Shown one piece after another: positions 2,063-51,620 of a stretch of 64,000 bases of DNA; the first letter of the stretch is position 1; each line of letters opens with the position of its first letter. The notes below the pieces were generated by a model. The model saw only the letters and a program-made list of their open reading frames with translations, was not told the origin of the DNA and did no database searches. A program made the translations under genes and the position numbers. This stretch comes from Thalassomonas actiniarum (GTDB lineage Bacteria; Pseudomonadota; Gammaproteobacteria; Enterobacterales; Alteromonadaceae), in the NCBI RefSeq assembly GCF_000948975.2, contig NZ_CP059735.1, forward strand, positions 2,480,001-2,544,000, given 5' to 3'.

Positions 2063-2635
2063 GTGAACGTCAGGTTTATGCTGCTTTTTTTGCTCTTTGT
2101 TAATGCTGTCCAGGCAAAGCCGGCAATAGAGGAGCACTTTGAGTTTTACGATATTTATCCGGTCTCAAAAGAGGATATCCGCAGCGAAATTCAGCAAAGA
2201 ACTCCGATCATCAGCCAGGGCAGCAGGTTTGACGGGCGCACCTTATGGCAGGTTGCCTGGCAATATTACCGGAAAAAAAGTGATAATCTCTGCCATATAA
2301 CCAGGAATGAAATCACCTTAAAAGTCCTTTATACCATGCCGGCAATTGCGCCTAAGTTCACTGTTAAGCCAAAAGTAAGAGATGCCTTCGACAGTTATTA
2401 TCAAGCCTTGCTTAATCATGAAAAGGGCCATAAAAAAATTGGCATTCAGGCGGCAAGCGCGATTGAGCAGGCGTTACTAAATTTCAAATCTTTTAGTCAT
2501 TGCCAGGGGCTTGATACTGCCGTCAACAAGGCAATAACAGCAATTATCAATAACCATCATCGCCAGGATGAAGATTATGATCGGCAAACCGAACATGGCA
2601 AGCTACAGGGCGTTTCCATAGATAATCCTTTGTAG
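2063..2635 (+). CDS. DUF922-type secreted zinc protease-like protein
   Basis: A 190-residue protein with an N-terminal signal sequence (RFMLLFLLFVNAVQA). It has the features of the DUF922 family, predicted secreted Zn-dependent proteases: GRTLWQVAWQYYRK, a PKFT stretch and the metal-binding helix LLNHEKGHKKIG, where HEKGH gives the HExxH motif. GTG at 2063 is chosen because aaaggga (2051-2057) lies 5 bases upstream and the ATG at 2061 is followed directly by a stop. The HExxH motif suggests an active enzyme, but its substrate is unknown. Confidence 0.75.
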   Translation: MNVRFMLLFLLFVNAVQAKPAIEEHFEFYDIYPVSKEDIRSEIQQRTPIISQGSRFDGRTLWQVAWQYYRKKSDNLCHITRNEITLKVLYTMPAIAPKFTVKPKVRDAFDSYYQALLNHEKGHKKIGIQAASAIEQALLNFKSFSHCQGLDTAVNKAITAIINNHHRQDEDYDRQTEHGKLQGVSIDNPL

Positions 2636-2657
2636 CAAGTTGAGGCTGGCTTGAGGG

Positions 2658-3368
2658 CTATTTGCCGTATGACCAGATATAACTCTCCGGCGCTACGCCA
2701 TCAGCGATGATTTGATTTCTCAGCTGCAAGGCATCTTTTTTAGAGACATTGCTGGCAATGGCTACGGCATAAGGTTTAGCAAAGCCCCGGGGGTTATAAA
2801 CTTTGGCCTTATAATTTTTCTCTGCCAGGCTTTTGGCCTGTGCTTTTGCCTGCTTGTAGCTATTGTGGGAGCCAACAATAACAAAGTAACTGTTTTGCTG
2901 TGACGTTTGCAGCTTTGTTCCGGCAACTCCCCTTAGAAACCGTGACCAGCCGCTGATCTTGGGCTCTTTTAACATCTGCTCATTTTGATACTGTTTGTTC
3001 TTGGTGCTCTCTGCAGAAGAATTAGCGGCAAAAGCCTGTGGGAAAATAGAGATAGAATATTTATTTGCCAGCGGGGATACGGGGAGGTTTTCATTGCTAC
3101 CGACACCGCCATTGATAAAGGTTGCCAATAAAGCCGGCGCAGCTAATCCCAGTTGGAAAATTTTAAAGGGTTCGTTTTCGGTTTTATGCAGGTAGGCAAC
3201 AAAAGCTCCCAGGAAAATCAGTATGATACACCTGACAATAAGACCTACCCAATCAAGCACTTCATAGTTGACCACAGCTGTTTTAAAATCAATTGACAAC
3301 AAGGTTATCAGGTAGGGGGTAATGCCGCCTATTGCTCCTAAAGCAATACGTTTGTTTAGCTTCATCAT
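2658..3368 (-). CDS. Membrane protein with C-terminal SPOR-like domain
   Basis: A 236-residue protein. The first about 110 residues hold three hydrophobic segments (ALGAIGGITPYLITLLSI, DWVGLIVRCIILIFLGAFVAYL and a weaker third one). A hydrophilic linker rich in Ser, Asn and Gln follows, then a C-terminal repeat-like module (about residues 160-232: YFVIVGSHNSYKQAKAQAK, then YAVAIASNVSKKDALQL). The latter has the pattern of SPOR peptidoglycan-binding domains. It converges with the DUF922 gene with only 22 bases between. A cell-envelope role, perhaps at septal peptidoglycan, is inferred from the SPOR pattern only. Confidence 0.65.
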   Translation of the reverse strand: MMKLNKRIALGAIGGITPYLITLLSIDFKTAVVNYEVLDWVGLIVRCIILIFLGAFVAYLHKTENEPFKIFQLGLAAPALLATFINGGVGSNENLPVSPLANKYSISIFPQAFAANSSAESTKNKQYQNEQMLKEPKISGWSRFLRGVAGTKLQTSQQNSYFVIVGSHNSYKQAKAQAKSLAEKNYKAKVYNPRGFAKPYAVAIASNVSKKDALQLRNQIIADGVAPESYIWSYGK

Positions 3369-3608
3369 GACTCTCCATACCGTGTGGATAAATTTGCTCT
3401 ATCTGGAGTTGTTGCTATTACTGTGCTGCCAGAGCTACTTTTATCTCACCTCAGTTGATCTTTATCGCCCTTAAGATAGGAATGCTGATCTACTTTTTCT
3501 AAAAACTCTCTCTATATCAATAAGCTAATTTGCCGCTGCTAAATAAACTCAATATAATTATTGCTGAGCCTGTAAGCTCTATTTATTCATAAAAAGAAGG
3601 ATGTATTA

Positions 3609-3944
3609 ATGAAACTCAAGTCAATTGTTATGCTTTGCGCTATGTCTTTATCTTCTACTGTTATGGCGGGAAGTTACCAGTACGGTAAGGTAAGCGAATT
3701 AATTACCGAAGGCGACAGGGTGACGTTTCAGCTGGATACGGCAACTGGTATTGATATCAGGGATGAAAGCTGTAACGGCCAAACCCTGAATTTTGTTATT
3801 GACTTCAACACTAAAGCTACCGCGCAAATCATGTACCAGACGGCGCTGGAGTCCAAACGCGACGGCATCAATATCGGCGTAAACGGCGAAGGTAACTGCG
3901 GTATTGGCGGTGAATTTGAACAGGTGAGCACTATAGCGTGCTAA
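3609..3944 (+). CDS. Small secreted protein of unknown function
   Basis: A 111-residue protein with a clear signal peptide (KLKSIVMLCAMSLSSTVMA) that leaves a mature protein of about 90 residues. An aaggatg stretch lies 6-12 bases before the ATG. Three cysteines in the mature part (DESCNG, GNCGIGG and the C-terminal AC) could form a disulfide. No family recognised. It sits alone between the SPOR gene and the hydrolase gene, both on the minus strand; the 240-base gap upstream has no recognisable feature. Confidence 0.6.
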   Translation: MKLKSIVMLCAMSLSSTVMAGSYQYGKVSELITEGDRVTFQLDTATGIDIRDESCNGQTLNFVIDFNTKATAQIMYQTALESKRDGINIGVNGEGNCGIGGEFEQVSTIAC

Positions 3945-4001
3945 CGGAAAACGTAAGAAAGCTGCTGTTTGATAGTCAACGGCAGCTTTGAAAGGGAGTC
4001 A

Positions 4002-4913
4002 TTAAGCCCTGTATTCTTGTAGGTTTCGCCTATCAGGCGTTATTTCATCTTTGGCGTCTGCCTTTGGCAGCTGATCTAAGATAATTTGCTGCCAGAGATG
4101 ATGCCGGTCCCGCTTGAAAAAGCCAAAATGACCGATACGCTTTTGCCGAAATTCACTTGGATGGAATATCTGCAGTTGTTTGCTCGCCCTGGGAAAGCGT
4201 GCCATCAGATCCTCTATGGTTTTTTTGGGGGAAAAACCAATATCGTCACTAAAGCCGACCGCATGGATATTACCTTGATATTCATGATAATAGGTTTGTT
4301 CCAGCGTCCGGTCGGAAAATAAATATTCTTTGCTTGTACTCCAGTTGCGCCAATCCAGTGCTACCCCTTTAGGTAAATCATGGCCTATGCCCGTTTTTCC
4401 GGGAATGTAACCCCGGATTTTGACCAGTGCAGGAAGTAGTAAATACCAGCTCAGCCACATTTTTGGCCATTGGCTTAAAGGGTATAATTTCCAGCTGCAT
4501 GTGCCCGAGCTGATCAAGATAATTTGTCTTATTTTATCAAGTGACCGGCATAAACCGACTAAATGGCCGCCGGCGCTGTGGCCTATCAGGGTGATATCTT
4601 GCCACCGGGCCCAATGGTTAGCCGTAACATGATGCAGCAGGGCATCAAGATCAAGACTCCCCCAATCCCTTAATTTTGCCGGGTCGGTTTTGACATTTTC
4701 ACTTTGTGAGCCGCCTATGCCTCTGGGATCCCAAGTGATAACAGTACAGCCGTGTTCGGCGAGATATTGAGCCAAAGCCTGGTAAAAATCCTGCTTCACG
4801 CCCAAGGCCGAGTTAATGATGATAAAGCGGTTATTCGAAGCCGTTGCCGGAAGATATTTGGTGGCGGACAGCACCCGGCCATCCTTGCATTTTACGTTAA
4901 ATTTGATTGTCAT
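4002..4913 (-). CDS. Alpha/beta hydrolase (serine aminopeptidase S33-like)
   Basis: A 303-residue cytosolic protein of the alpha/beta-hydrolase fold. The nucleophile elbow GHSAGG puts the catalytic Ser at residue 113; WDPRGIGGS (61-69) is the typical early loop, and HFGFFKR near residue 258 probably carries the catalytic His. It is close to a group of predicted alpha/beta hydrolases with esterase-like sequences. The substrate is not known. The gene diverges from a MerR regulator and has a MerR-type promoter directly upstream, so it is probably the regulator's target. The start ATG at 4913 follows an aggtga ribosome binding site. Confidence 0.75.
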   Translation of the reverse strand: MTIKFNVKCKDGRVLSATKYLPATASNNRFIIINSALGVKQDFYQALAQYLAEHGCTVITWDPRGIGGSQSENVKTDPAKLRDWGSLDLDALLHHVTANHWARWQDITLIGHSAGGHLVGLCRSLDKIRQIILISSGTCSWKLYPLSQWPKMWLSWYLLLPALVKIRGYIPGKTGIGHDLPKGVALDWRNWSTSKEYLFSDRTLEQTYYHEYQGNIHAVGFSDDIGFSPKKTIEDLMARFPRASKQLQIFHPSEFRQKRIGHFGFFKRDRHHLWQQIILDQLPKADAKDEITPDRRNLQEYRA

Positions 4914-4930
4914 AAATTCACCTCTTCCTT

Positions 4931-4962
4931 ATCATAAACCCTGGACTATACTCCACGGTCAA
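4931..4962 (-). promoter_or_regulatory. MerR-type promoter/operator for the hydrolase gene
   Basis: Read on the minus strand, TTGACC (4962-4957) is a -35 element, TATGAT (4936-4931) a -10 element, and the spacer is 20 bases instead of 17. The spacer holds the dyad TGGAGTATAGTCCA. Over-long spacers with such a dyad are the hallmark of promoters activated by MerR-family proteins through DNA untwisting. The MerR gene begins only 10 bases away on the other strand, so the site would also affect its own expression. Confidence 0.8.
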
Positions 4963-4971
4963 GAGGAAATT

Positions 4972-5364
4972 ATGCAAATAGGAGCATTGTGCCAAAGCAC
5001 TGGCATGAGCAAAGACACCATACGTTTTTATGAAAAAATCGGTCTGATGGGAGACATCAAACGCAAAGCCAATGGTTATAAAGACTATTCTCAAGGCCAT
5101 GTCGAGCAGTTGAAATTACTCAAACACGCTAAAGAGTTAGGCTTTACCCTCAATGAAATCAAGGAGCTGGCGGGGCTGTTTTTGTCAAAAAGCCTGCCGC
5201 CACAGGCAATGAATGATTATCTGAAAAAGAAAGCGTTGGAAATAGATGAAAAAATAGCGAAGCTACAGGCCTTTAAACAGGAAATTAAAGACACCCTGGC
5301 GGGCAATTGCATTTATAAAGAGCAGTTGATTAAGGCATCTGCCGGGGCTAAAAAATCCTCCTAG
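4972..5364 (+). CDS. MerR-family transcriptional regulator
   Basis: A 130-residue regulator. The N-terminal winged helix-turn-helix (MQIGALCQSTGMSKDTIRFY, then EKIGL) is typical of MerR proteins, followed by the second helix pair (NGYKDYS, LKHAKELGFTLNEIKEL) and a dimerisation helix (about 80-115). Only one C-terminal Cys (GNCIYKE) is present, so the two-Cys metal site of CueR/ZntR is absent and the inducer is unknown. Longer in-frame upstream starts are rejected because agaggaa lies 4 bases before the ATG at 4972. It diverges from the hydrolase gene and shares a promoter region with it. Confidence 0.88.
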   Translation: MQIGALCQSTGMSKDTIRFYEKIGLMGDIKRKANGYKDYSQGHVEQLKLLKHAKELGFTLNEIKELAGLFLSKSLPPQAMNDYLKKKALEIDEKIAKLQAFKQEIKDTLAGNCIYKEQLIKASAGAKKSS

Positions 5365-5495
5365 CCCGGGCGAAACTGTTATCAGGTAAATCCAGTCATT
5401 TATTGAATCCTGGAAGAAAATCTCAAACAGCAGTTACCTCTTAGCCTTATATATGGTTTAATAACTGTAAATAAAAACAGTGATAAAGCCTTGAT

Positions 5496-6962
5496 ATGGA
5501 AACTTCCCTTTTGCCTGAGCCATTTTTTCTACACCCCCTGTTTATTTTTCTCCTTATTTTCGCCGGTCTTTTTCTGATCGCTTTTTTGCTGTTGTGGCGA
5601 AAATTGGCACAAATAACTTTGTTGCAGCAGTTAAGTCAGCAAGAAAATGGTGCTGAGTCTTTTAATAACCAGCTGAGTCAATGGGGGCGGGCGCAGGAAA
5701 AAGCCTTTGATAAATTCCAGCAGCAACTCCAGTATTCGCACCAGCACCAGGTGAAGCAGTTGGGAGAGGTTAAAGTCTATTTTGAGCAGCAAATTGCCGA
5801 CCTGCGCATTAAACTGCTGCGCCAGATAAGTGAGCAAAACAGTAAACAGGAATACAGTAACCGGCAGTTCTTCCAGGAGTTATCCCAAGGGCTTAATGAG
5901 CAAAAAGAGCAGTTTAACCACAACCAGCTAAAAGCGGTGGATCAGCTTATTGAGCATTTAACGAAAACCACCCGGGAAAACCGTGAAGAATTGTCTAAGA
6001 CCCTGGCGAGCAGCAGCGAACAAATGTCGGTAAAAATGAATGAGCTGACCGGCGCCACCGATAAACGCCTGGCTGATATCAGTGTCCAGGTGGAAAAACG
6101 CTTAAGTGACGGTTTTGATAAAACCACCAAGACCTTTAACGATATCCTGCAAAGGCTGGCGTTAATCGATGATGCCCAGAAGAAAATCACTGAATTGTCC
6201 ACCAATGTGGTCAGCCTGCAGGAAGTGCTGGCGGATAAACGCTCCCGCGGGGCTTTTGGCGAGGTACAGCTTAATGCCTTGATCAGGAATGTATTGCCTG
6301 AGCAGCATTTCTCGCTGCAACATACTTTATCTAATGGCAAGATTGCCGATTGTGTGTTGTTCTTGCCGCCGCCGACCGGGGATGTGGTGATCGATTCCAA
6401 ATTTCCGCTGGAAAGCTACCGTAAGATGATGGACAACGAACTGGCCGAGCTCGAACGTAAAGCGGCGGAGCGCCAGTTCAAAGCCGATATTAAAAAACAC
6501 ATCAATGATATCAGCGATAAATATCTGATTGACCGGGAAACCTCAGACGGCGCCATTATGTTTATTCCGGCAGAGGCTATTTTTGCTGAAATTCATGCCC
6601 ACCAAAGTGAGTTGGTAGAATTTGCCAATAAAAAACGGGTGTGGTTGGCTTCCCCCACTACCTTGATGGCGATTTTAACTACCGTACGCTCGGTATTAAA
6701 AGATGAAGCCACAAGGCAGCAAATTCACCTGATCCAGCAACACCTTTCCATGTTGTCGCAGGACTTTGGCCGCTTTAAAGGCCGCTTTGCCAACCTGGCG
6801 AAACATATCGACCAGGCAGCATCGGATGTTAAACAAATTCATACCTCTGCCGATAAGATCACTAACCGTTTTGAAAAAATAGAGCGGGTGGACTTACAGG
6901 AAGGGCAGCATGAGTCATCCCTTGAGTTGGCGCCGGGACAGAGCCTGGCCCATAAGTCTTAG
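5496..6962 (+). CDS. rmuC: DNA recombination protein RmuC
   Basis: A 488-residue protein, close to the usual size. One N-terminal transmembrane segment (about 15-35) is followed by a long Gln/Glu-rich coiled coil (40-240) and the RmuC domain (about 250-440), with GAFGEVQLNALIRNVLPEQH, VVIDSKFPLESYRKM and MFIPAEAIFAEI. The fold resembles PD-(D/E)xK nucleases. In E. coli RmuC loss increases inversions between short repeats. The ribosome binding site before 5496 is weak. It is monocistronic as far as can be seen. Confidence 0.93.
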   Translation: METSLLPEPFFLHPLFIFLLIFAGLFLIAFLLLWRKLAQITLLQQLSQQENGAESFNNQLSQWGRAQEKAFDKFQQQLQYSHQHQVKQLGEVKVYFEQQIADLRIKLLRQISEQNSKQEYSNRQFFQELSQGLNEQKEQFNHNQLKAVDQLIEHLTKTTRENREELSKTLASSSEQMSVKMNELTGATDKRLADISVQVEKRLSDGFDKTTKTFNDILQRLALIDDAQKKITELSTNVVSLQEVLADKRSRGAFGEVQLNALIRNVLPEQHFSLQHTLSNGKIADCVLFLPPPTGDVVIDSKFPLESYRKMMDNELAELERKAAERQFKADIKKHINDISDKYLIDRETSDGAIMFIPAEAIFAEIHAHQSELVEFANKKRVWLASPTTLMAILTTVRSVLKDEATRQQIHLIQQHLSMLSQDFGRFKGRFANLAKHIDQAASDVKQIHTSADKITNRFEKIERVDLQEGQHESSLELAPGQSLAHKS

Positions 6963-7224
6963 CAAGAAAATAACAGCCGCTTTATTTATCGTGACGGGCA
7001 ATTATCAGGGGATTTTTTATTTTCTGTGATAAAAACAAATATAATTTAATGAAAACACATGAAATGGTCGCCTGCTAACTTGAGAGTCTGTTATTCTGTG
7101 TTTGATTTGAATAAGCACCCCGGCAAGCATAGCTGTATTTATTGCCGGAGCTGTGTTTAGAGCGCCATCCGGATTAACCGCTCTTGTTTTGAGTGGATGC
7201 TTTAAAAAGAAGTAGGGTAGTGAG

Positions 7225-8412
7225 TTGTTTAAGTTAGAAGGTTTTAATGTTACCGCATTGAGCATTGCCGGCTCAGTACTGGTTTTTGCCCTGATGATAC
7301 ATTTTCAGGCGTTTTGGCAGCCGTGGCAGCATATTATGGTGAATGTGTTATATGCGCTGATCGGCATTACCATTATTTTTGCGGCTCAGTTCAGCCGCAG
7401 CCGTTTCTCCCTGTTGGCCGCTTTATGGCTGGTTTTTTATCTCAGCTTAGAATATACCTTGCCCTGGTCTGCCTGGCTGAAAAGTCATAAGGACTGGATG
7501 TTATTAACCGGCGTCGGGGTTTTTGCCTTATTTTCCGTGATCAAAGACCGCGGCCTGCTTAGCGTGCACGGTCCGGGACGTTTGTTGTTCATCGCCATGT
7601 GCGGCCTGGTAGCCCATCTCTGGTTATGGGCCAGTGACTTGATTCTTGGGCAAGTGCCTAAAACCGATCCCGCTTATGATTATGTCCAGCTGTTGTCCCT
7701 GGAAGTGCCCGTGGTGCTTGCCAGTATGGTACTGCTGTGGCAAAGCCTGGTTAAGGCAAATTTGCTGTTAAGCGCCTTGCTGGTCAGTTTTATTATTTGG
7801 TGCGTACAGTATTACCAGTTAATTGCCTTGCCCTGGGAGGTGATTTTAACGGTATTGGTGTGTCATTACCTGCTGGTGGTGGTTATCGACTCTTATTTTC
7901 TCGCCTACCGGGATGAGCTGACGACTTTGCCTTCACGCCGGGCACTGAACCAGCTAGCCTTGTCCCTGGGACGTAAATATACCGTGGCTATGCTCGATAT
8001 CGATCATTTTAAAAAGTTCAATGATACCTACGGCCATGATATCGGCGATCAGGTATTAAAATTGGTGGCGTCAAAACTGTCAAAAGTACGCGGCGGCGGT
8101 AAGGTTTACCGTTATGGCGGTGAAGAGTTTACGGTAGTTTTTCCCGGGAAATCTGCCGCCCATGCCGTGGCAGAGCTGGAAATATTACGCCAGAGCATAG
8201 CGGATTATAAAATGGTGATCCGCGATCCCAACCGCCAAACCAAGCAAGCGCGTAACGGCAGTAAAAACAAGGGCATGAAAACCGTCAGCATCACGATTTC
8301 TATCGGGGTTGCCATGCGCGGCAGCAAGCAAAACTTTGACCGGGTGCTCAAGCTTGCCGATGAGGCGCTATACCGGGCCAAGAAAAACGGCCGTAATAAT
8401 GTCAGTCAGTGA
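7225..8412 (+). CDS. Membrane diguanylate cyclase (GGDEF)
   Basis: A 395-residue protein: about seven to eight transmembrane helices (residues 10-225) and a C-terminal GGDEF domain starting at DELTTLPSRRAL. The signature is GGEEF within YRYGGEEFTVVF, so cyclase activity is expected, producing cyclic di-GMP. The inhibitory I-site, normally RxxD five residues before GGEEF, reads RGGG and is lost, so product feedback is probably absent. The TTG start at 7225 is chosen because agtaggg lies 7 bases upstream. A strong terminator follows. Confidence 0.9.
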   Translation: MFKLEGFNVTALSIAGSVLVFALMIHFQAFWQPWQHIMVNVLYALIGITIIFAAQFSRSRFSLLAALWLVFYLSLEYTLPWSAWLKSHKDWMLLTGVGVFALFSVIKDRGLLSVHGPGRLLFIAMCGLVAHLWLWASDLILGQVPKTDPAYDYVQLLSLEVPVVLASMVLLWQSLVKANLLLSALLVSFIIWCVQYYQLIALPWEVILTVLVCHYLLVVVIDSYFLAYRDELTTLPSRRALNQLALSLGRKYTVAMLDIDHFKKFNDTYGHDIGDQVLKLVASKLSKVRGGGKVYRYGGEEFTVVFPGKSAAHAVAELEILRQSIADYKMVIRDPNRQTKQARNGSKNKGMKTVSITISIGVAMRGSKQNFDRVLKLADEALYRAKKNGRNNVSQ

Positions 8413-8423
8413 TGTTTATTTTT

Positions 8424-8457
8424 CAGCCCCAATTAGTAATGAATTGGGGCTGTTTTT
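8424..8457 (+). terminator. Rho-independent terminator of the GGDEF gene
   Basis: Perfect 11-base stem (cagccccaatt / aattggggctg), 7-base loop, then TTTTTAATTT. It lies 12 bases after the stop codon of the diguanylate cyclase. The next gene is on the opposite strand and may also use the hairpin. Confidence 0.9.
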
Positions 8458-8494
8458 AATTTGATGTTATTGCTTTGCGGCTATTAAAAATGAC

Positions 8495-9229
8495 TTAATT
8501 GCTGATTCTTTTTCTGACGGCAAACCCGACTAATGCCAGGCCAAGCAGCATAGCGGTTGCCGGCTCAGGTACCGGAGCCGTGCTTGAGGGAAGAAAGTCG
8601 GCGCCGACATTATCAAAATAACCTTTGCCTTCCTGACTCCACAGGCCTGCCGTGCCGCCGCTAAAGGTATCATCGGTGTAGCTTTGCTCGAAAACCGGCA
8701 AGGATTCAAAATTACTGTTGTCCCAGATGCTGGCGGTAAACTCATTACCCTGACCTTGTACCTGCATGCTATAGCTGCTGCCGGTGGTTGGTGTAAAGCC
8801 TATATTGGCATCACTTGTGGTGACATAAGAAATCTGGCCGTCAATAAAACGGGTAAAGCGAAAAGCGCCGCCGGTCCAGCCGGGGAAAAAGTGCATGGAA
8901 TAAAAGTTTGACGCATCCTGGATGTTAAATGCGATCCCCACAGCGCTCCAACCGACCCGGATGTCTTGTGCTCCCAGCGCTGTTCTGAAAAGAAAATCAT
9001 CGTTATATGCCCCGTTAAGCGCTATCACTTGTCCCGGATTTGCCGTGTAATAGCTTGAGCCGGCACTTTGATGTAATGTTCCGTCTTGTACGTCCCATTG
9101 ACCGCCAAGCACGCTCCAGTGGCTTAAATCGCCGGAATTGAAGTTATCGGTAAAGACTATTTGGGATGCCTGGGTGCTGAAGCTGTTAATGAAAAAAGTG
9201 GTTAGGGCTATTATTATTCTTAACATCAT
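8495..9229 (-). CDS. PEP-CTERM sorted secreted protein
   Basis: A 244-residue protein with an N-terminal signal peptide (IIALTTFFINSFSTQA) and a C-terminal PEP-CTERM tail: VPEPATAM, a hydrophobic helix and RKR at the end. The tail directs exosortase/EpsH processing, so the protein is probably surface-bound or released into the biofilm matrix. The body (DNFNSGDLSHWSVLGGQWDV and similar) has the pattern of a concanavalin/LamG-like jelly roll used for carbohydrate or matrix contact. No exosortase gene lies in the window. Monocistronic. Confidence 0.85.
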   Translation of the reverse strand: MMLRIIIALTTFFINSFSTQASQIVFTDNFNSGDLSHWSVLGGQWDVQDGTLHQSAGSSYYTANPGQVIALNGAYNDDFLFRTALGAQDIRVGWSAVGIAFNIQDASNFYSMHFFPGWTGGAFRFTRFIDGQISYVTTSDANIGFTPTTGSSYSMQVQGQGNEFTASIWDNSNFESLPVFEQSYTDDTFSGGTAGLWSQEGKGYFDNVGADFLPSSTAPVPEPATAMLLGLALVGFAVRKRISN

Positions 9230-9262
9230 ATCTGTCCTTTTAATACTAAATTACTACAAGTC

Positions 9263-9422
9263 ATACCAATTGCATTAAGTAAATGACCAAAATTCGGAGA
9301 GGATAAATTTTCAAGAGCAAGGCGTTTGATTGAGCAATAGCAAGCTATTGTGATTGAAAACAACGCAGGACTTGGAGATTTAGAGCATCCGAAGATGGTT
9401 AGATATTTAATAAAATTGGTAT
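9263..9422. repeat. MITE-like inverted-repeat element of about 160 bp
   Basis: The element begins ataccaattgcatta and ends in taataaaattggtat, giving imperfect terminal inverted repeats of about 15 bases (taccaatt conserved exactly). It carries an internal near-palindrome caatag/ctattg around 9340 and no coding capacity. Elements of this type are, as far as I remember, common in Colwellia/Thalassomonas-type genomes. No second copy is visible in this window. It sits in the 433-base gap between two PEP-CTERM genes. Confidence 0.7.
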
Positions 9423-9583
9423 TAGTTTCCTGTTGGTATGGAGGCTAACGTAGAATTCATTCAAAACGCTTTTGAATTCCTTTAAAACAAATAGCAGTAA
9501 TCATGCCATGAAAAGTGTCAGAATTTTGCCATTGTGCCCGAGGCAATAAGGTGACGGCTACTAAACCGCTTGAAGAGGCCAAC

Positions 9584-9624
9584 AATGGAAACCGTAATCA
9601 GGGGAGTTGGTTTCCATTTTATTT
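9584..9624 (+). terminator. Hairpin with U-tract, plus strand, no obvious gene
   Basis: A perfect 10-base stem (9584-9593 with 9609-9618, aatggaaacc / ggtttccatt) and a 15-base loop, followed by TTATTTG on the plus strand. The only genes around are on the minus strand, so this is either part of a plus-strand small RNA or a mRNA structure without a matching gene. Confidence 0.4.
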
Positions 9625-9628
9625 GTTG

Positions 9629-9660
9629 AACCAGCACCAGAACTGATGCTGGTTTTTTAT
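9629..9660 (+). terminator. Rho-independent terminator on the plus strand
   Basis: An 8-base stem aaccagca / tgctggtt (9629-9636 with 9647-9654), loop of 10 bases, then a T-rich run TTTTATT. The T-run is on the plus strand, although the adjacent PEP-CTERM gene ends at 9663 on the minus strand. Together with the hairpin 10 bases before it, it predicts a plus-strand transcript that ends here. Confidence 0.6.
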
Positions 9661-9662
9661 TG

Positions 9663-10304
9663 TTAACTGCTTTGGCGCTTTCTGCTTCTGGCGGAAAAGC
9701 CCAATATAGCCAACCCAAGTAACATAGCTGTGCTTGGCTCAGGTACAGATACAGGAGGCTGGACTGTCGGATCTTCAGAGATATCTTTAACACTGCCGTT
9801 GCAGTTATTGGTGTCGCAGTCATCACCTACCGACTGGGCGCGTATTGCCACCCGGGTAAACAAAGTTTCATCTAAGATCAGATCGCCTTTTGCCAGCCCG
9901 AAAGAAAATAAAGTCACATAGTCACCGCCCGAGCCTTGATCGCCTACTTTAAAGAGGTTGTCAAAGTTATAGCGAGTCGCGCCGTTGAAATTACAGCCGG
10001 GACCACAGCTCAATGAATCCGTGGTGTAATTTGAAAAATCATAGGTGGAGTAATTGACCAGATCGGCAGGAATATCAAAATCTGCCGTGGTATCAAAAGC
10101 AAAGCCTAAAATGTCACCGGTCGGATTTGCTGTACCGATGCCGATATTAAAGGTAAAAAAGCCGTCATTGCTTTCATCGTCAATGCTGACCCGCCAGTCG
10201 ATTTGGTAACCGCTGTTATATTGCCAGTCTTCGAAGGTAATGACAGTGGCATGGCTGATGGCGGTAAAAGATAGCAGAAGTGTGGTGAGTAGTGCTTTTA
10301 TCAT
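9663..10304 (-). CDS. PEP-CTERM protein, paralogue A
   Basis: A 213-residue protein with signal peptide (KALLTTLLLSFTAISHA) and PEP-CTERM tail VPEPSTAMLLGLAILGF followed by RSRKR. The body has conserved blocks FEDWQYNSG, DESNDGFFTFNIGIG, GDILGFAFDT and two Cys pairs (SCGPGC, CDTNNC). The following upstream gene at 10675-11325 encodes a close paralogue with the same blocks, so the pair is a tandem duplication. The ribosome binding site aaaggaa precedes the ATG, with a GC-rich hairpin just before it. Function unknown; surface or matrix location is inferred from the tail. Confidence 0.85.
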   Translation of the reverse strand: MIKALLTTLLLSFTAISHATVITFEDWQYNSGYQIDWRVSIDDESNDGFFTFNIGIGTANPTGDILGFAFDTTADFDIPADLVNYSTYDFSNYTTDSLSCGPGCNFNGATRYNFDNLFKVGDQGSGGDYVTLFSFGLAKGDLILDETLFTRVAIRAQSVGDDCDTNNCNGSVKDISEDPTVQPPVSVPEPSTAMLLGLAILGFSARSRKRQSS

Positions 10305-49134: not shown

Positions 49135-49404
49135 ATGATTTTTAATATGGCAAATTTTTCAGGAGCGCATTTAAAAAGTCTGCGCAAAGAGGCGGGTTTA
49201 ACACAAAAAGAATTGGCGTCGAGAATCGGCCTCAGTCGTGAAACCGTTGTTGCCATTGAAAATGAATATGTCGGCTCTATCGACAAGCTCAGTATCGAAG
49301 TTGTCAACTCTTGGTGGGCAGTGTGTCGCCGCACTGTTTCTGCAAAAACCAAGGAATCTTTTAAAAGCCAGATCTTAAGGTTCTTCAACATCCAAAATTC
49401 ATGA
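49135..49404 (+). CDS. XRE-family HTH regulator
   Basis: An 89-residue protein with one HTH domain: LKSLRKEAGLTQKELASRIG, LSRETVVAIEN. A short tail with RTVSAKTKESFKSQILRFF follows. Starts at 49120, 49135 and 49147 are possible; gaggt precedes 49135 closely, so the exact start is uncertain. Its stop overlaps by 4 bases with the next gene, a multi-helix membrane protein, so the two products probably work together. The secreted repeat protein gene follows them, making a possible three-gene unit. Confidence 0.75.
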   Translation: MIFNMANFSGAHLKSLRKEAGLTQKELASRIGLSRETVVAIENEYVGSIDKLSIEVVNSWWAVCRRTVSAKTKESFKSQILRFFNIQNS

Positions 49405-50105
49405 TACTGAATTTATATCTGCGCAAGTTATTTACCCCGATACTGGTTATTACTTTTGCGCTAATAGGCGTATATACCTTTGGTTATGCCGAATATTTTG
49501 ATCGTTGGTTTTTACTTGGCTTGGTAATGTTTTTCCTGGTAAAAGTAAAGACCCGTGATGTGAATATGGCCGGGCTTATTGCCATTATCATTTTTGAACG
49601 TTCGGTTGAAGAAATCGGTTTCTTCATCGAAAATCATTTTGATTCAAAAGTGATTATTTATTTGTGCGCAGCAGCACTCATGTATAAGTTAAAATACGAT
49701 CAAGTGGTTAAAAAGCTTTGCATTCCTTTGTTGATGTCAATAATTTTAGCTGAATGTTATTGGTATTTTATAGGCTATCAACCGCCGCGGATTCATGCGT
49801 ATGTTCTGATGCTTCTGGTTAATATAATTACCAGACATTTATTATTTATGCGGGTGCCTCTTACCGATAAAATGGTCAAAGGAGGGAAGTTTTTACCTCT
49901 GGATCTAAAACTTTATGATTTATCAAAGTGGGGTATTTGGATAATAGCTGTGATGATATCGGAATATTTGATCCGACATTTGACTCCTTTAAACCCTTTA
50001 TATTTTTACCAAGTATATTCAATGTTAATGCACTCCATAGCTGTATTAACTCTTTTCTATTTCACCGAAGATTATTTGCGTTCTCGTTTTATTTTAGACG
50101 CCTAA
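49401..50105 (+). CDS. Polytopic membrane protein coupled to the HTH gene
   Basis: A 234-residue, very hydrophobic protein with seven to eight transmembrane helices and short charged loops (VKVKTRDVNM, KYDQVVKKL, DKMVKGGKF). No family recognised. It is AT-richer than the neighbours (many tta, att, ttt codons), which hints at foreign origin or relaxed codon use. Translation is coupled to the upstream XRE gene by ATGA overlap. With the repeat protein 115 bases downstream, a sensor, exporter or processing role is possible but not shown. Confidence 0.65.
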   Translation: MILNLYLRKLFTPILVITFALIGVYTFGYAEYFDRWFLLGLVMFFLVKVKTRDVNMAGLIAIIIFERSVEEIGFFIENHFDSKVIIYLCAAALMYKLKYDQVVKKLCIPLLMSIILAECYWYFIGYQPPRIHAYVLMLLVNIITRHLLFMRVPLTDKMVKGGKFLPLDLKLYDLSKWGIWIIAVMISEYLIRHLTPLNPLYFYQVYSMLMHSIAVLTLFYFTEDYLRSRFILDA

Positions 50106-50219
50106 TACCTGAATAACTTTTGCTCAGTCTGGCATGTCTTTGCCTTGTTATTTTGAATCCTGATAATAGTTGATGTGGACCCTGAGCCACTTCTTATCAC
50201 TATTAACAGAGACAAAATA

Positions 50220-50951
50220 ATGAACTTATTTAAATTAGCAACTTTATTTTTATGTTTAACCTTTCCAGTAACAACTTTAGCTGCCGGAGGGAAGAAGGTA
50301 CCGCCGGTTGAAGTTCTCTTAGCTGCCGGTGGAAAGAAGGTACCGCCGGTTGAAGTTCTCTTAGCTGCCGGAGGGAAGAAGGTACCGCCGGTTGAAGTTC
50401 TCTTAGTTGCCGGTGGAAAGAAGGTACCGCCGGTTGAAGTTCTCTTAGCTGCCGGTGGAAAGAAGGTACCGCCGGTTGAAGTTCTCTTAGCTGCCGGTGG
50501 AAAGAAGGTACCGCCGGTTGAAGTTCTCTTAGCTGCCGGTGGAAAGAAGGTACCGCCGGTTGAAGTTCTCTTAGCTGCCGGTGGAAAGAAGGTACCGCCG
50601 GTTGAAGTTCTCTTAGCTGCCGGTGGAAAGAAGGTACCGCCGGTTGAAGTTCTCTTAGCTGCCGGAGGGAAGAAGGTACCGCCGGTTGAAGTTCTCTTAG
50701 CTGCCGGTGGAAAGAAGGTACCGCCGGTTGAAGTTCTCTTAGCTGCCGGTGGGAAGAAGGTACCGCCGGTTGAAGTTCTCTTAGCTGCCGGAGGGAAGAA
50801 GGTACCGCCGGTTGAAGTTCTCTTAGCTGCCGGAGGGAAGAAGGTACCACCGGTTGAAATGATTACTGGTATTTATTACGTAATTAGTTCTGAATTAACA
50901 GGAGTGAAAAAGGGCCATGAAAAATCGTCTTTTTACTTACTCTTAGGTTAA
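50220..50951 (+). CDS. Secreted protein with fourteen 14-residue tandem repeats
   Basis: A 243-residue protein. The signal peptide (residues 1-20, FKLATLFLCLTFPVTTLA) is followed directly by fourteen copies of AAGGKKVPPVEVLL (the last copy ends after VE), then a 30-residue tail MITGIYYVISSELTGVKKG and onward. Copy differences are nearly all synonymous, so the peptide sequence is held by selection. Each unit has a Lys-Lys pair, a double Gly and a Glu eight residues before the second Gly. Start ATG at 50220 is chosen for its signal peptide; gagac lies 8 bases upstream. Function unknown: a structural polymer, a multi-peptide precursor or a surface protein. Confidence 0.7.
   Translation: MNLFKLATLFLCLTFPVTTLAAGGKKVPPVEVLLAAGGKKVPPVEVLLAAGGKKVPPVEVLLVAGGKKVPPVEVLLAAGGKKVPPVEVLLAAGGKKVPPVEVLLAAGGKKVPPVEVLLAAGGKKVPPVEVLLAAGGKKVPPVEVLLAAGGKKVPPVEVLLAAGGKKVPPVEVLLAAGGKKVPPVEVLLAAGGKKVPPVEVLLAAGGKKVPPVEMITGIYYVISSELTGVKKGHEKSSFYLLLG
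50280..50858 (+). repeat. Fourteen tandem 42-bp repeats
   Basis: Units start every 42 bases from 50280 to 50826; thirteen are complete and the fourteenth stops after 33 bases. All share ggtaccgccggttgaag and vary mostly at the GGA/GGT and GGG/GGA Gly codons. Copy 4 has GTT for GCT (Val for Ala) and copy 14 CCA for CCG. There are no spacers between units, so this is a minisatellite in a gene and not a CRISPR array. Confidence 0.97.
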
Positions 50952-51005
50952 GTAAAAACACTTTAAAAACATAGAAAAACAAAATGTGCAGCACATTCCA
51001 CTTTG

Positions 51006-51051
51006 TATAATGTATAGTACTCCACTATCAGCGAGGATGCTGGAGTACTAT
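51006..51051 (+). promoter_or_regulatory. TATAAT box next to an 11-bp hairpin
   Basis: TATAAT (51006-51011) is followed at once by a perfect inverted repeat atagtactcca / tggagtactat (51014-51024 with 51041-51051; 16-base loop). No good -35 is visible. A transcript starting about 51018 would begin within the left arm. It may be an operator for the gene at 51186 or a 5' stem-loop; both are guesses. Confidence 0.4.
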
Positions 51052-51185
51052 CAACAGGTTTGTTTGATAATGAGTCGTAAGTTACTCACAACATCTTCAA
51101 CCAACTCTGGCATTACTTATTTAGTGCGGCTTTCAGAGCTCTGTTACAGCTAAGTTAGTACCTATGTGATTAAAAGGATGTAGTC

Positions 51186-51620
51186 GTGACACCTGCAAAA
51201 ATAACTGAATTTTTCACCTTACTTAAGATGGTCGGTTTTGTCGACAATACCGAATATCAAGCCCGGGGTGATGCCAGTGTCTCATATTCTTTTGGCCGTT
51301 TAATGTATAAAAACGGTGCGCCTGCCACTTCACAGGGCACGGGTTATCAAAAACGTTTTCTAATCGATTATTTACCTGAATGGTGTGTGGCCTACGCAGA
51401 AAACGGTCAGTTTAAACTTTCGGTGTTTTCACAAAAATGGGGGGACGACGGTATACCCGTGACGCATGAAAATGTCATGCCTTTCATTACCGCTGCGCAG
51501 TTGCTGATGTATGTACAGGAATTGCAAAAAATCTCTCATACCAAGGCGCTTATGGCGATGAAAAAAGCCCAGCAGGAAGAGCCAACCATTCACTCCCCGG
51601 TCAAACAGCAATATTATTAA
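51186..51620 (+). CDS. Hypothetical protein, unknown function
   Basis: A 144-residue soluble protein with GTG start; aaggatg is 5 bases upstream. The middle (FGRLMYKNGAPATSQGTGYQ, RFLIDYLPEWCVAYAENG) is beta-rich, and the end (MPFITAAQLLMYVQELQKI then charged) helical. I recognise no family. It lies in a group of small genes between the repeat protein and the YHYH lipoprotein with unrelated-looking products, suggesting accessory DNA. Confidence 0.5.
   Translation: MTPAKITEFFTLLKMVGFVDNTEYQARGDASVSYSFGRLMYKNGAPATSQGTGYQKRFLIDYLPEWCVAYAENGQFKLSVFSQKWGDDGIPVTHENVMPFITAAQLLMYVQELQKISHTKALMAMKKAQQEEPTIHSPVKQQYY

Follow-up and report, generated by a model that had tools for sequence, protein, structure and literature searches.

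A three-gene cassette with a multi-copy secreted peptide precursor as a candidate peptide-sensing system in Alteromonadaceae

To our knowledge, dedicated peptide signaling is familiar from Gram-positive bacteria, whereas hardly any is known from Gram-negative bacteria. In the RNPP circuits of Gram-positive species, the peptide enters the cell, and the regulator has a large repeat domain for peptide binding. Regulators paired with inhibitory membrane proteins form another arrangement, represented by BrsRM/HdrRM and YozG-YoaS (DUF2975). The yeast alpha-factor type pro-pheromones are made from a secreted precursor that holds tandem peptide copies with a Kex2-type spacer, and they act with a multi-helix membrane receptor. 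Several core peptides within one precursor also characterize multi-core RiPPs such as microviridins (PMC5934393). Here we describe a previously unnamed set of three genes that seems to serve the production and sensing of short peptides; a search of the open-licence PMC literature at listing level found no description of it. Our preferred reading, to which we give a probability of roughly 55%, is that the cassette is a peptide-sensing regulatory system in which a multi-copy peptide acts through an eight-helix membrane protein on an XRE repressor.

The cassette occupies positions 49135 to 50951 of a 64,000-nucleotide stretch of the Thalassomonas actiniarum genome (contig NZ_CP059735.1, positions 2,480,001 to 2,544,000; hereafter the window), whose source assembly of 7.49 Mb in two contigs is 100% complete. 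All of its features are encoded on the forward strand. An XRE (Cro/C1-type) regulator gene (49135-49404; Pfam HTH_3, E 1.1e-9) overlaps by 4 bases (ATGA) the gene for a 234-residue membrane protein of an unnamed family, which is a putative peptide sensor (49401-50105), and a gene for a secreted multi-copy peptide precursor of 243 residues lies downstream (50220-50951). This layout had been proposed in an initial annotation of the window and was confirmed by our reading of the ORFs. The same annotation gave the regulator 89 residues. The ORF from ATG 49135 indeed has 89 codons, but an in-frame ATG at 49147 matches the start position in relatives, which makes an 85-residue protein likelier. For the precursor gene, the likely start is ATG 50220, which is 114 bases past the membrane protein gene. 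An automated ORF call had put it at GTG 50175, inside the palindrome described below, and this start is less likely. Elsewhere in the window, the minus strand between 43446 and 46597 encodes in a row an apparent outer-membrane barrel of 535 residues (judged by eye), a Frag1-like ORF that scores below the Pfam cut-off, and a sigma-70-type factor.

The membrane protein was modeled with AlphaFold2 from 39 sequences, and the model has eight long helices and one short helix (mean pLDDT 91.8, pTM 0.86), at the upper end of the seven to eight helices first estimated. That the protein resembles no known family also held in our searches. Pfam searches over the 39 members returned matches for single members only, none of them convincing (best E 0.0063, to Peptidase_M50B), and NCBIfam, PADLOC, and PHROGs gave no convincing match for the window protein and two relatives. 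A sequence search of the PDB returned no match, and the best Foldseek matches to the PDB (E 0.44) and BFVD (E 0.12) were not significant, including the GPCRs and rhodopsins that appear in the Foldseek lists. Mobility of the gene likewise found no support, as a plasmid search with one family member and a phage search with another gave no match. Across the 39 aligned sequences, Lys/Arg residues outnumber Asp/Glu residues at 461:195 on the side assigned to the inside, and the ratio turns to 178:319 on the outer side, which supports a predicted topology with both ends of the protein inside. Four residues are invariant (R151, D168, E188, and R192) and six nearly so (F33, Y87, E118, W121, R145, and Y189). 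Given the predicted topology, E118, W121, E188, Y189, and R192 would be on the periplasmic side of the protein, and the cytoplasmic side would have R145, R151, and D168; from this we guess that a Lys-rich peptide could fit an acidic pocket facing the periplasm. At 13 loci (78 pairs), mean identity is 0.44 for the membrane protein versus 0.50 for the neighboring RimI protein, with the lower value belonging to the membrane protein in 58 of the 78 pairs, and it is 0.85 for the XRE protein and 0.80 for a second HTH protein that is treated below. Entropy does not differ between the inner and outer halves of the membrane protein (P = 0.43), so that the periplasmic half is not more variable. Divergence near that of RimI and the lack of extra variability in the outer half therefore do not clearly point to diversification driven by a ligand.

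The cassette has its range within a single family of marine bacteria. A membrane-protein profile found matches in 47 of 395 genomes (13 of 52 genera) of the window's taxonomic family, in 5 of 394 genomes drawn from its order, and in 2 of 369 drawn from its class, and all matches from these wider draws again fell in the window's family. Once duplicates and the proteins of locus L069 had been removed, 72 nonredundant membrane-protein loci remained for comparison. L069 (probably Aestuariibacter sp. AA17) holds six tandem genes at 2567-9862, whose products of 304 to 361 residues carry the membrane domain behind an N-terminal extension; five of the six match HTH families (E 0.0045 or better) and the sixth matches none. 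This array is interrupted by an apparent transposase pair, and no motif peptide was noticed by eye beside the fusion genes.

Among the 72 loci, an XRE homologue lies upstream of the membrane protein gene in 69 (the exceptions are L047, L061, and L070), and its S-R-E-T and A-I-E motifs are invariant across 15 aligned relatives. The spacing between the two genes is −4 to +6 bases in 48 of the 69 loci, so translational coupling is usual. The order of regulator, membrane protein, and secreted peptide is kept over many genera, and the refuting outcome named in the initial annotation, that the genes are unlinked in relatives, did not occur. Six relatives of the regulator (L102, L116, L118, L119, L124, and L128) have no membrane protein gene by tblastn with the 39 members (E 1e-4), and the forward stretches examined contain no signal-bearing motif peptide; the sole pattern match among them, in L119, is devoid of a signal peptide when judged by eye. 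Taken together, these XRE-only relatives, which have no peptide, and the HTH fusions connect the peptide with the membrane protein and the latter with DNA binding.

The product of the third gene is made up of a signal peptide (about residues 1-20; the N-terminus is signal-peptide-like by eye), 14-residue units, and a nonrepeat C-terminal tail. Tandem Repeats Finder reports a period of 42 with 13.9 copies and 97% matches (50277-50858), and the protein has 14 GGKKVPP cores. The fourteen identical units initially described therefore stand as to their number. Their identity is nearly right for the protein, in which one unit deviates (LLVAGG in place of LLAAGG), but not for the DNA, in which 5 different units occur among 13 compared. 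Matches of this protein to DUF7699, RU1PAldHalo, GerC3_HepT, and other Pfam and NCBIfam entries were set aside as repeat-driven.

What relatives of this protein share is a core, (G/S)-x-(K/R)-x-x-P-P. A locus was scored as carrying a peptide gene when a signal-peptide-like ORF with the core pattern started at most 210 bases downstream. With signal peptides called by a crude hydrophobicity test, and with strict and loose core patterns that were written after the peptides had been seen, the strict pattern was found at 50 of 66 membrane-protein loci but in only 4 of 225 control ORFs (other long ORFs of the same loci), and the loose pattern at 59 of 66 loci and in 8 of the 225 controls. Taken with the nearly constant upstream regulator, these counts uphold the initial view of the three genes as one unit. 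By eye, a peptide gene is present in 63 of the 67 loci that are not cut by a contig end, many of which are close relatives. The set includes deviant genes in L042 and L060 and a KPK in place of KPP in L093, and there is no recognizable peptide gene in L018, L059, L061, and L111. Contig ends cut L082, L083, L084, L089, and L099, and the core is still visible in L084 and L099. Named carriers of the membrane protein gene with a peptide include Thalassomonas, Paraglaciecola, Aliiglaciecola, Aestuariibacter, an uncultured Colwellia, Cognaticolwellia, Psychrosphaera, Planctobacterium, and Alteromonas.

In relatives with a single-copy gene or with tandem genes, the core stands directly behind the signal peptide, as in AHA-GSKQKPP and AFA-TGGKKEPP (the hyphens mark cleavage points placed by eye), and this position puts the core near the N-terminus of a small mature peptide. 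Homologous single-core peptides are mostly 38 to 76 residues long. The AHA-GSKQKPP form is encoded by six tandem genes in Aliiglaciecola lipolytica, TVGGKLPP by five tandem genes, and ATGGKKEPP by a single copy in Cognaticolwellia aestuarii, whereas SGKMKPP, GSKQVPP, SSRRVPP, and TSRRTPP are present as 15 to 31 in-frame repeats (L040, L037, L094, and L073). Within the window's own genus, NVGGKRVPPLA forms 11 and 12 repeats in two genomes, and SGRKDPP is a single copy in a third. The repeat units vary in length from 11 to 17 residues across genes, and the core is fixed.

Such products might instead belong to a bacteriocin-type cassette, wherein cationic proline-containing peptides hit competitors, the membrane protein provides immunity, and the XRE protein controls production. 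The peptides are indeed small, secreted, and cationic, their multiplication would serve yield, and a membrane protein stands beside each of them; moreover, many single-copy and tandem forms have Trp-containing amphipathic tails, such as SWWDQLVMSVIG (L013) and SWYDSILSFFSF (L024). However, the tail, which is the most membrane-active-like part, lies outside the repeated unit, whereas K-x-x-PP is kept in every repeat set. The HTH-membrane fusions of L069 fit a sensor rather than an immunity protein, and we saw no gene dedicated to export in the cassette of the window. We consider a bacteriocin function unlikely on these grounds.

The way in which copies are multiplied bears further on the preferred reading of peptide sensing. 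By-eye assignment of the 63 peptide loci gave 27 with in-frame repeats, 8 with tandem genes, and 27 with a single copy, and left L091, which lies near a contig end, undecided. A maximum-likelihood tree of the 72 membrane proteins, which came from a short search, has several long branches, and was labeled by eye for 63 rows (the cut L084 among them), requires at least 11 switches of copy mode. Two sister loci in the Planctobacterium genus differ in this manner, with three tandem genes in L057 versus three in-frame repeats in L123. With copy numbers that range from 1 to about 30, the cassette provides a natural series for studying what drives the multiplication of secreted peptides and which of the two routes, tandem genes or in-frame repeats, is favored.

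Differences between the units of the window gene are almost all synonymous (pN 0.005, pS 0.097, pN/pS 0.05), and the repeat is therefore more than a copying artefact. The pN/pS ratio is 0 to 0.25 in 21 of 23 repeat-gene rows, with L001 (0.28) and L016 (0.66) as exceptions; several of these rows are closely related, and one gene appears twice, as the window row with 13 units and as L001 with 14, the extra first unit of L001 reaching into the signal peptide. Averaged over 22 genes, the share of deviating units is 0.111 in the linker but falls to 0.011 for the five core positions ahead of PP; PP itself was omitted because the units were cut there, and repeated letters were placed by order. The largest core exception is the G/S position of L035. 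Purifying selection together with a fixed core indicates that the units themselves are kept, and not only the bulk of the repeat. The initial idea of a multi-copy precursor thus gains support from the tandem-gene and single-copy relatives as well as from purifying selection between units.

Pattern matches for the peptide core number 32 in the source genome, 14 of which are the window array. Translation of 16 of the remaining 18 showed only one that resembles such a peptide, in a paralogous cassette at 714 kb. The two cassettes of this genome specify different peptides, GGKKVPPVE and GGKTKPPMA, as separate channels would have.

Selection on the units also weighs against a purely intracellular feedback, in which the peptide would be a periplasmic or inner-membrane ligand of an envelope-state sensor and would have no cell-to-cell role. 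This reading accommodates the presence of a Sec signal only, with no outer-membrane export gene in the window cassette, and single-copy forms do end in amphipathic segments (by eye). It leaves unexplained, however, why copy number has risen repeatedly by two routes and why the units are under selection, and we regard it as rather improbable. Far less probable is a structural repeat polymer (an adhesin, amyloid, or beta-solenoid) under XRE control. The protein is secreted and repetitive, and AlphaFold2 run on it without an alignment gave a regular strand pattern, although with a mean pLDDT of 54.7. Nevertheless, the product at homologous loci is a single-core peptide or comes from several separate short genes, and unit lengths from 11 to 17 residues around a fixed core hardly fit one shared fold. 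Finally, export of a double-glycine precursor by a C39 peptidase transporter, as the initial annotation suggested, can be discarded: the window units do have GG with a Glu at the right distance, and the suggested search for C39 domains did find five matches over the Pfam cut-off in the source genome, but none of these is near the cassette, a Sec-like signal peptide is present in the window protein and in the relatives counted, and GG is not conserved, since many relatives have GS, SS, GT, or NS with no Glu eight residues before and keep K/R and PP instead.

Upstream of the precursor gene, we read a probable promoter consisting of TTGCCT, 16 bases, and GATAAT (50140-50167). Seven bases past GATAAT begins a palindrome, GTGGA-N6-GCCAC (50175-50190), which has one mismatch to GTGGA-N6-TCCAC and is a putative operator. 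Both promoter boxes are conserved in 4 of 4 genomes of the genus in a gap alignment, and the same four genomes have GTGGA-N6-(T/G)CCAC with four different N6 sequences. In the form GTGRA-N6-TYCAC, whose R and Y positions were written after the sequences had been seen, the palindrome occurs with at most one mismatch in the first 180 bases of 43 of the 72 loci and is lacking from 29, versus 1.2% of shuffled sequences and 0 of 72 far-upstream stretches. Because the loci are related, these 43 occurrences are not independent events. A conserved palindrome at the controlled promoter, as an XRE repressor should have, is nonetheless present at these loci. The stretch upstream of the XRE operon contains no palindrome within one mismatch that could serve as an autoregulation site. 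The palindrome is not frequent genome-wide, and the source genome has one exact match, which is inside an ORF; 20 sites fetched in 14 further genomes comprise 11 within ORFs, 5 upstream of the second HTH gene, and 4 elsewhere. Several Paraglaciecola repeat loci have another palindrome at the same place (e.g. GCGAATATTCGC) even though their XRE recognition helix reads unchanged, and the XRE protein therefore remains a putative binder of the palindrome.

The second HTH gene encodes 84 to 86 residues with a KTRKTYENWEK motif (e.g. L134, 1484-1741; also L144, L147, and L154-L183). In Aliiglaciecola and Paraglaciecola loci it follows the peptide gene, whereas in genome G107 it precedes the XRE gene. 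Exact GTGGA-N6-TCCAC sites are located 83 to 107 bases upstream of it in 30 of 30 loci, which are the best matches of 52 genomes. Its protein could bind the palindrome where it is present. However, matches to it in the window's genus are weak (best E 2.6e-17, versus 1e-40 and better elsewhere), and G287, which has the ATGGKKEPP peptide, yields none at E 1e-8, although the palindrome accompanies the peptide gene in either case. The retention of the palindrome where the second HTH gene is weak or absent makes the XRE protein the more economical putative binder. The second HTH gene also has at least 13 matches each in G070 and G107, and L102, one of the XRE relatives devoid of both membrane protein gene and peptide, retains this gene and its palindrome.

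A search of the cassette against Rfam returned no match. Beyond the cassette, the noncoding stretch at 50975-51185, between the repeat gene and a 144-residue gene at 51186, shows high conservation across the four genomes of the genus that were compared and contains a TATAAT-like promoter and a AGTACTCC...GGAGTACT hairpin. A 55-codon ORF with a GTG start in this stretch is shifted by an indel in L004, so that the stretch is probably an RNA or a leader. It too has no Rfam match, and its whole-stretch folding energy is not unusual (z −0.39).

From the linked genes, the conserved core, the selected units, and the conserved palindrome, we infer a course of processing, sensing, and repression in which the peptide may act from cell to cell or on its producer only. 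The third gene would yield a Sec-exported precursor, and its signal peptide would then be removed. The mature N-terminus and each repeat would present (G/S)-x-(K/R)-x-x-P-P, and each unit would probably be released or presented as a short cationic peptide of about 11 to 17 residues. A-x-A-like residues before each core are not universal, and no unit-releasing protease was identified; these points weigh against the scheme, as do the RimI-like divergence of the membrane protein, the equal variability of its two halves, the 29 loci that lack the palindrome, and the four that lack a peptide gene. The eight-helix membrane protein may recognize the core on the periplasmic side, near the conserved Glu118, Glu188, and Arg192, and relay the signal to the small, cytoplasmic, and usually translationally coupled XRE protein. 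The latter would bind GTGRA-N6-TYCAC, which closely follows the −10 box of the peptide gene, and so keep this gene repressed until signaled. If repression is lifted in this manner, the peptide would control its own supply and, in some genera, also the second HTH gene. Copy number, which is 14 here, would raise the peptide yield per transcript. Since the membrane protein belongs to a family not known before, the core is short and defined, and the target promoter is readable, each of these steps can be tested. More tentatively, and with somewhat less confidence than doubt, we suggest that the cassette represents a class of unrecognized Gram-negative peptide signaling, with multi-copy, Sec-exported K-x-x-PP pro-pheromones, new eight-helix receptors that drive a coupled XRE repressor, parallel channels within a genome, and repeated independent amplification of the pheromone.

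Compared with known systems, the cassette does not fit an agr-type circuit with its AgrB-like peptidase and AgrC-like histidine kinase, as the membrane protein has no family match and a Pfam scan of eight window proteins found no kinase. Nor does it match type II toxin-antitoxin systems (HipB-like): the best NCBIfam match of the regulator scores 37 bits versus a cut-off of 71.65, and the cassette has no toxin family match. It resembles Rgg-SHP, ComR-ComS, and RNPP systems in that an HTH_3-type regulator stands beside the gene for a short exported peptide, whose promoter is the likely target. However, the regulator has 85 to 89 residues with HTH matches as the only ones of note and no C-terminal repeat domain, and its gene is separated from the peptide gene by that of a membrane protein from a new family. 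With BrsRM/HdrRM and YozG-YoaS, it shares a small DNA-binding protein that is translationally coupled to a multi-helix membrane protein, but this membrane protein is without a convincing Pfam or NCBIfam match, and a secreted peptide is a nearly constant third member. Like multi-core RiPP precursors such as microviridins (PMC5934393), its precursor holds several core peptides; in contrast to RiPP clusters, the Pfam scan of eight window proteins found no modifying enzyme, and in the single-copy and tandem forms the core immediately follows a Sec-like signal peptide. Unlike the alpha-factor system, the cassette is bacterial, has no Kex2-type spacer, and has a putative receptor with no significant GPCR fold match. 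With that system it nevertheless has in common a secreted precursor, tandem short peptides, a copy number that varies among species, and a multi-helix membrane protein as the putative receptor.
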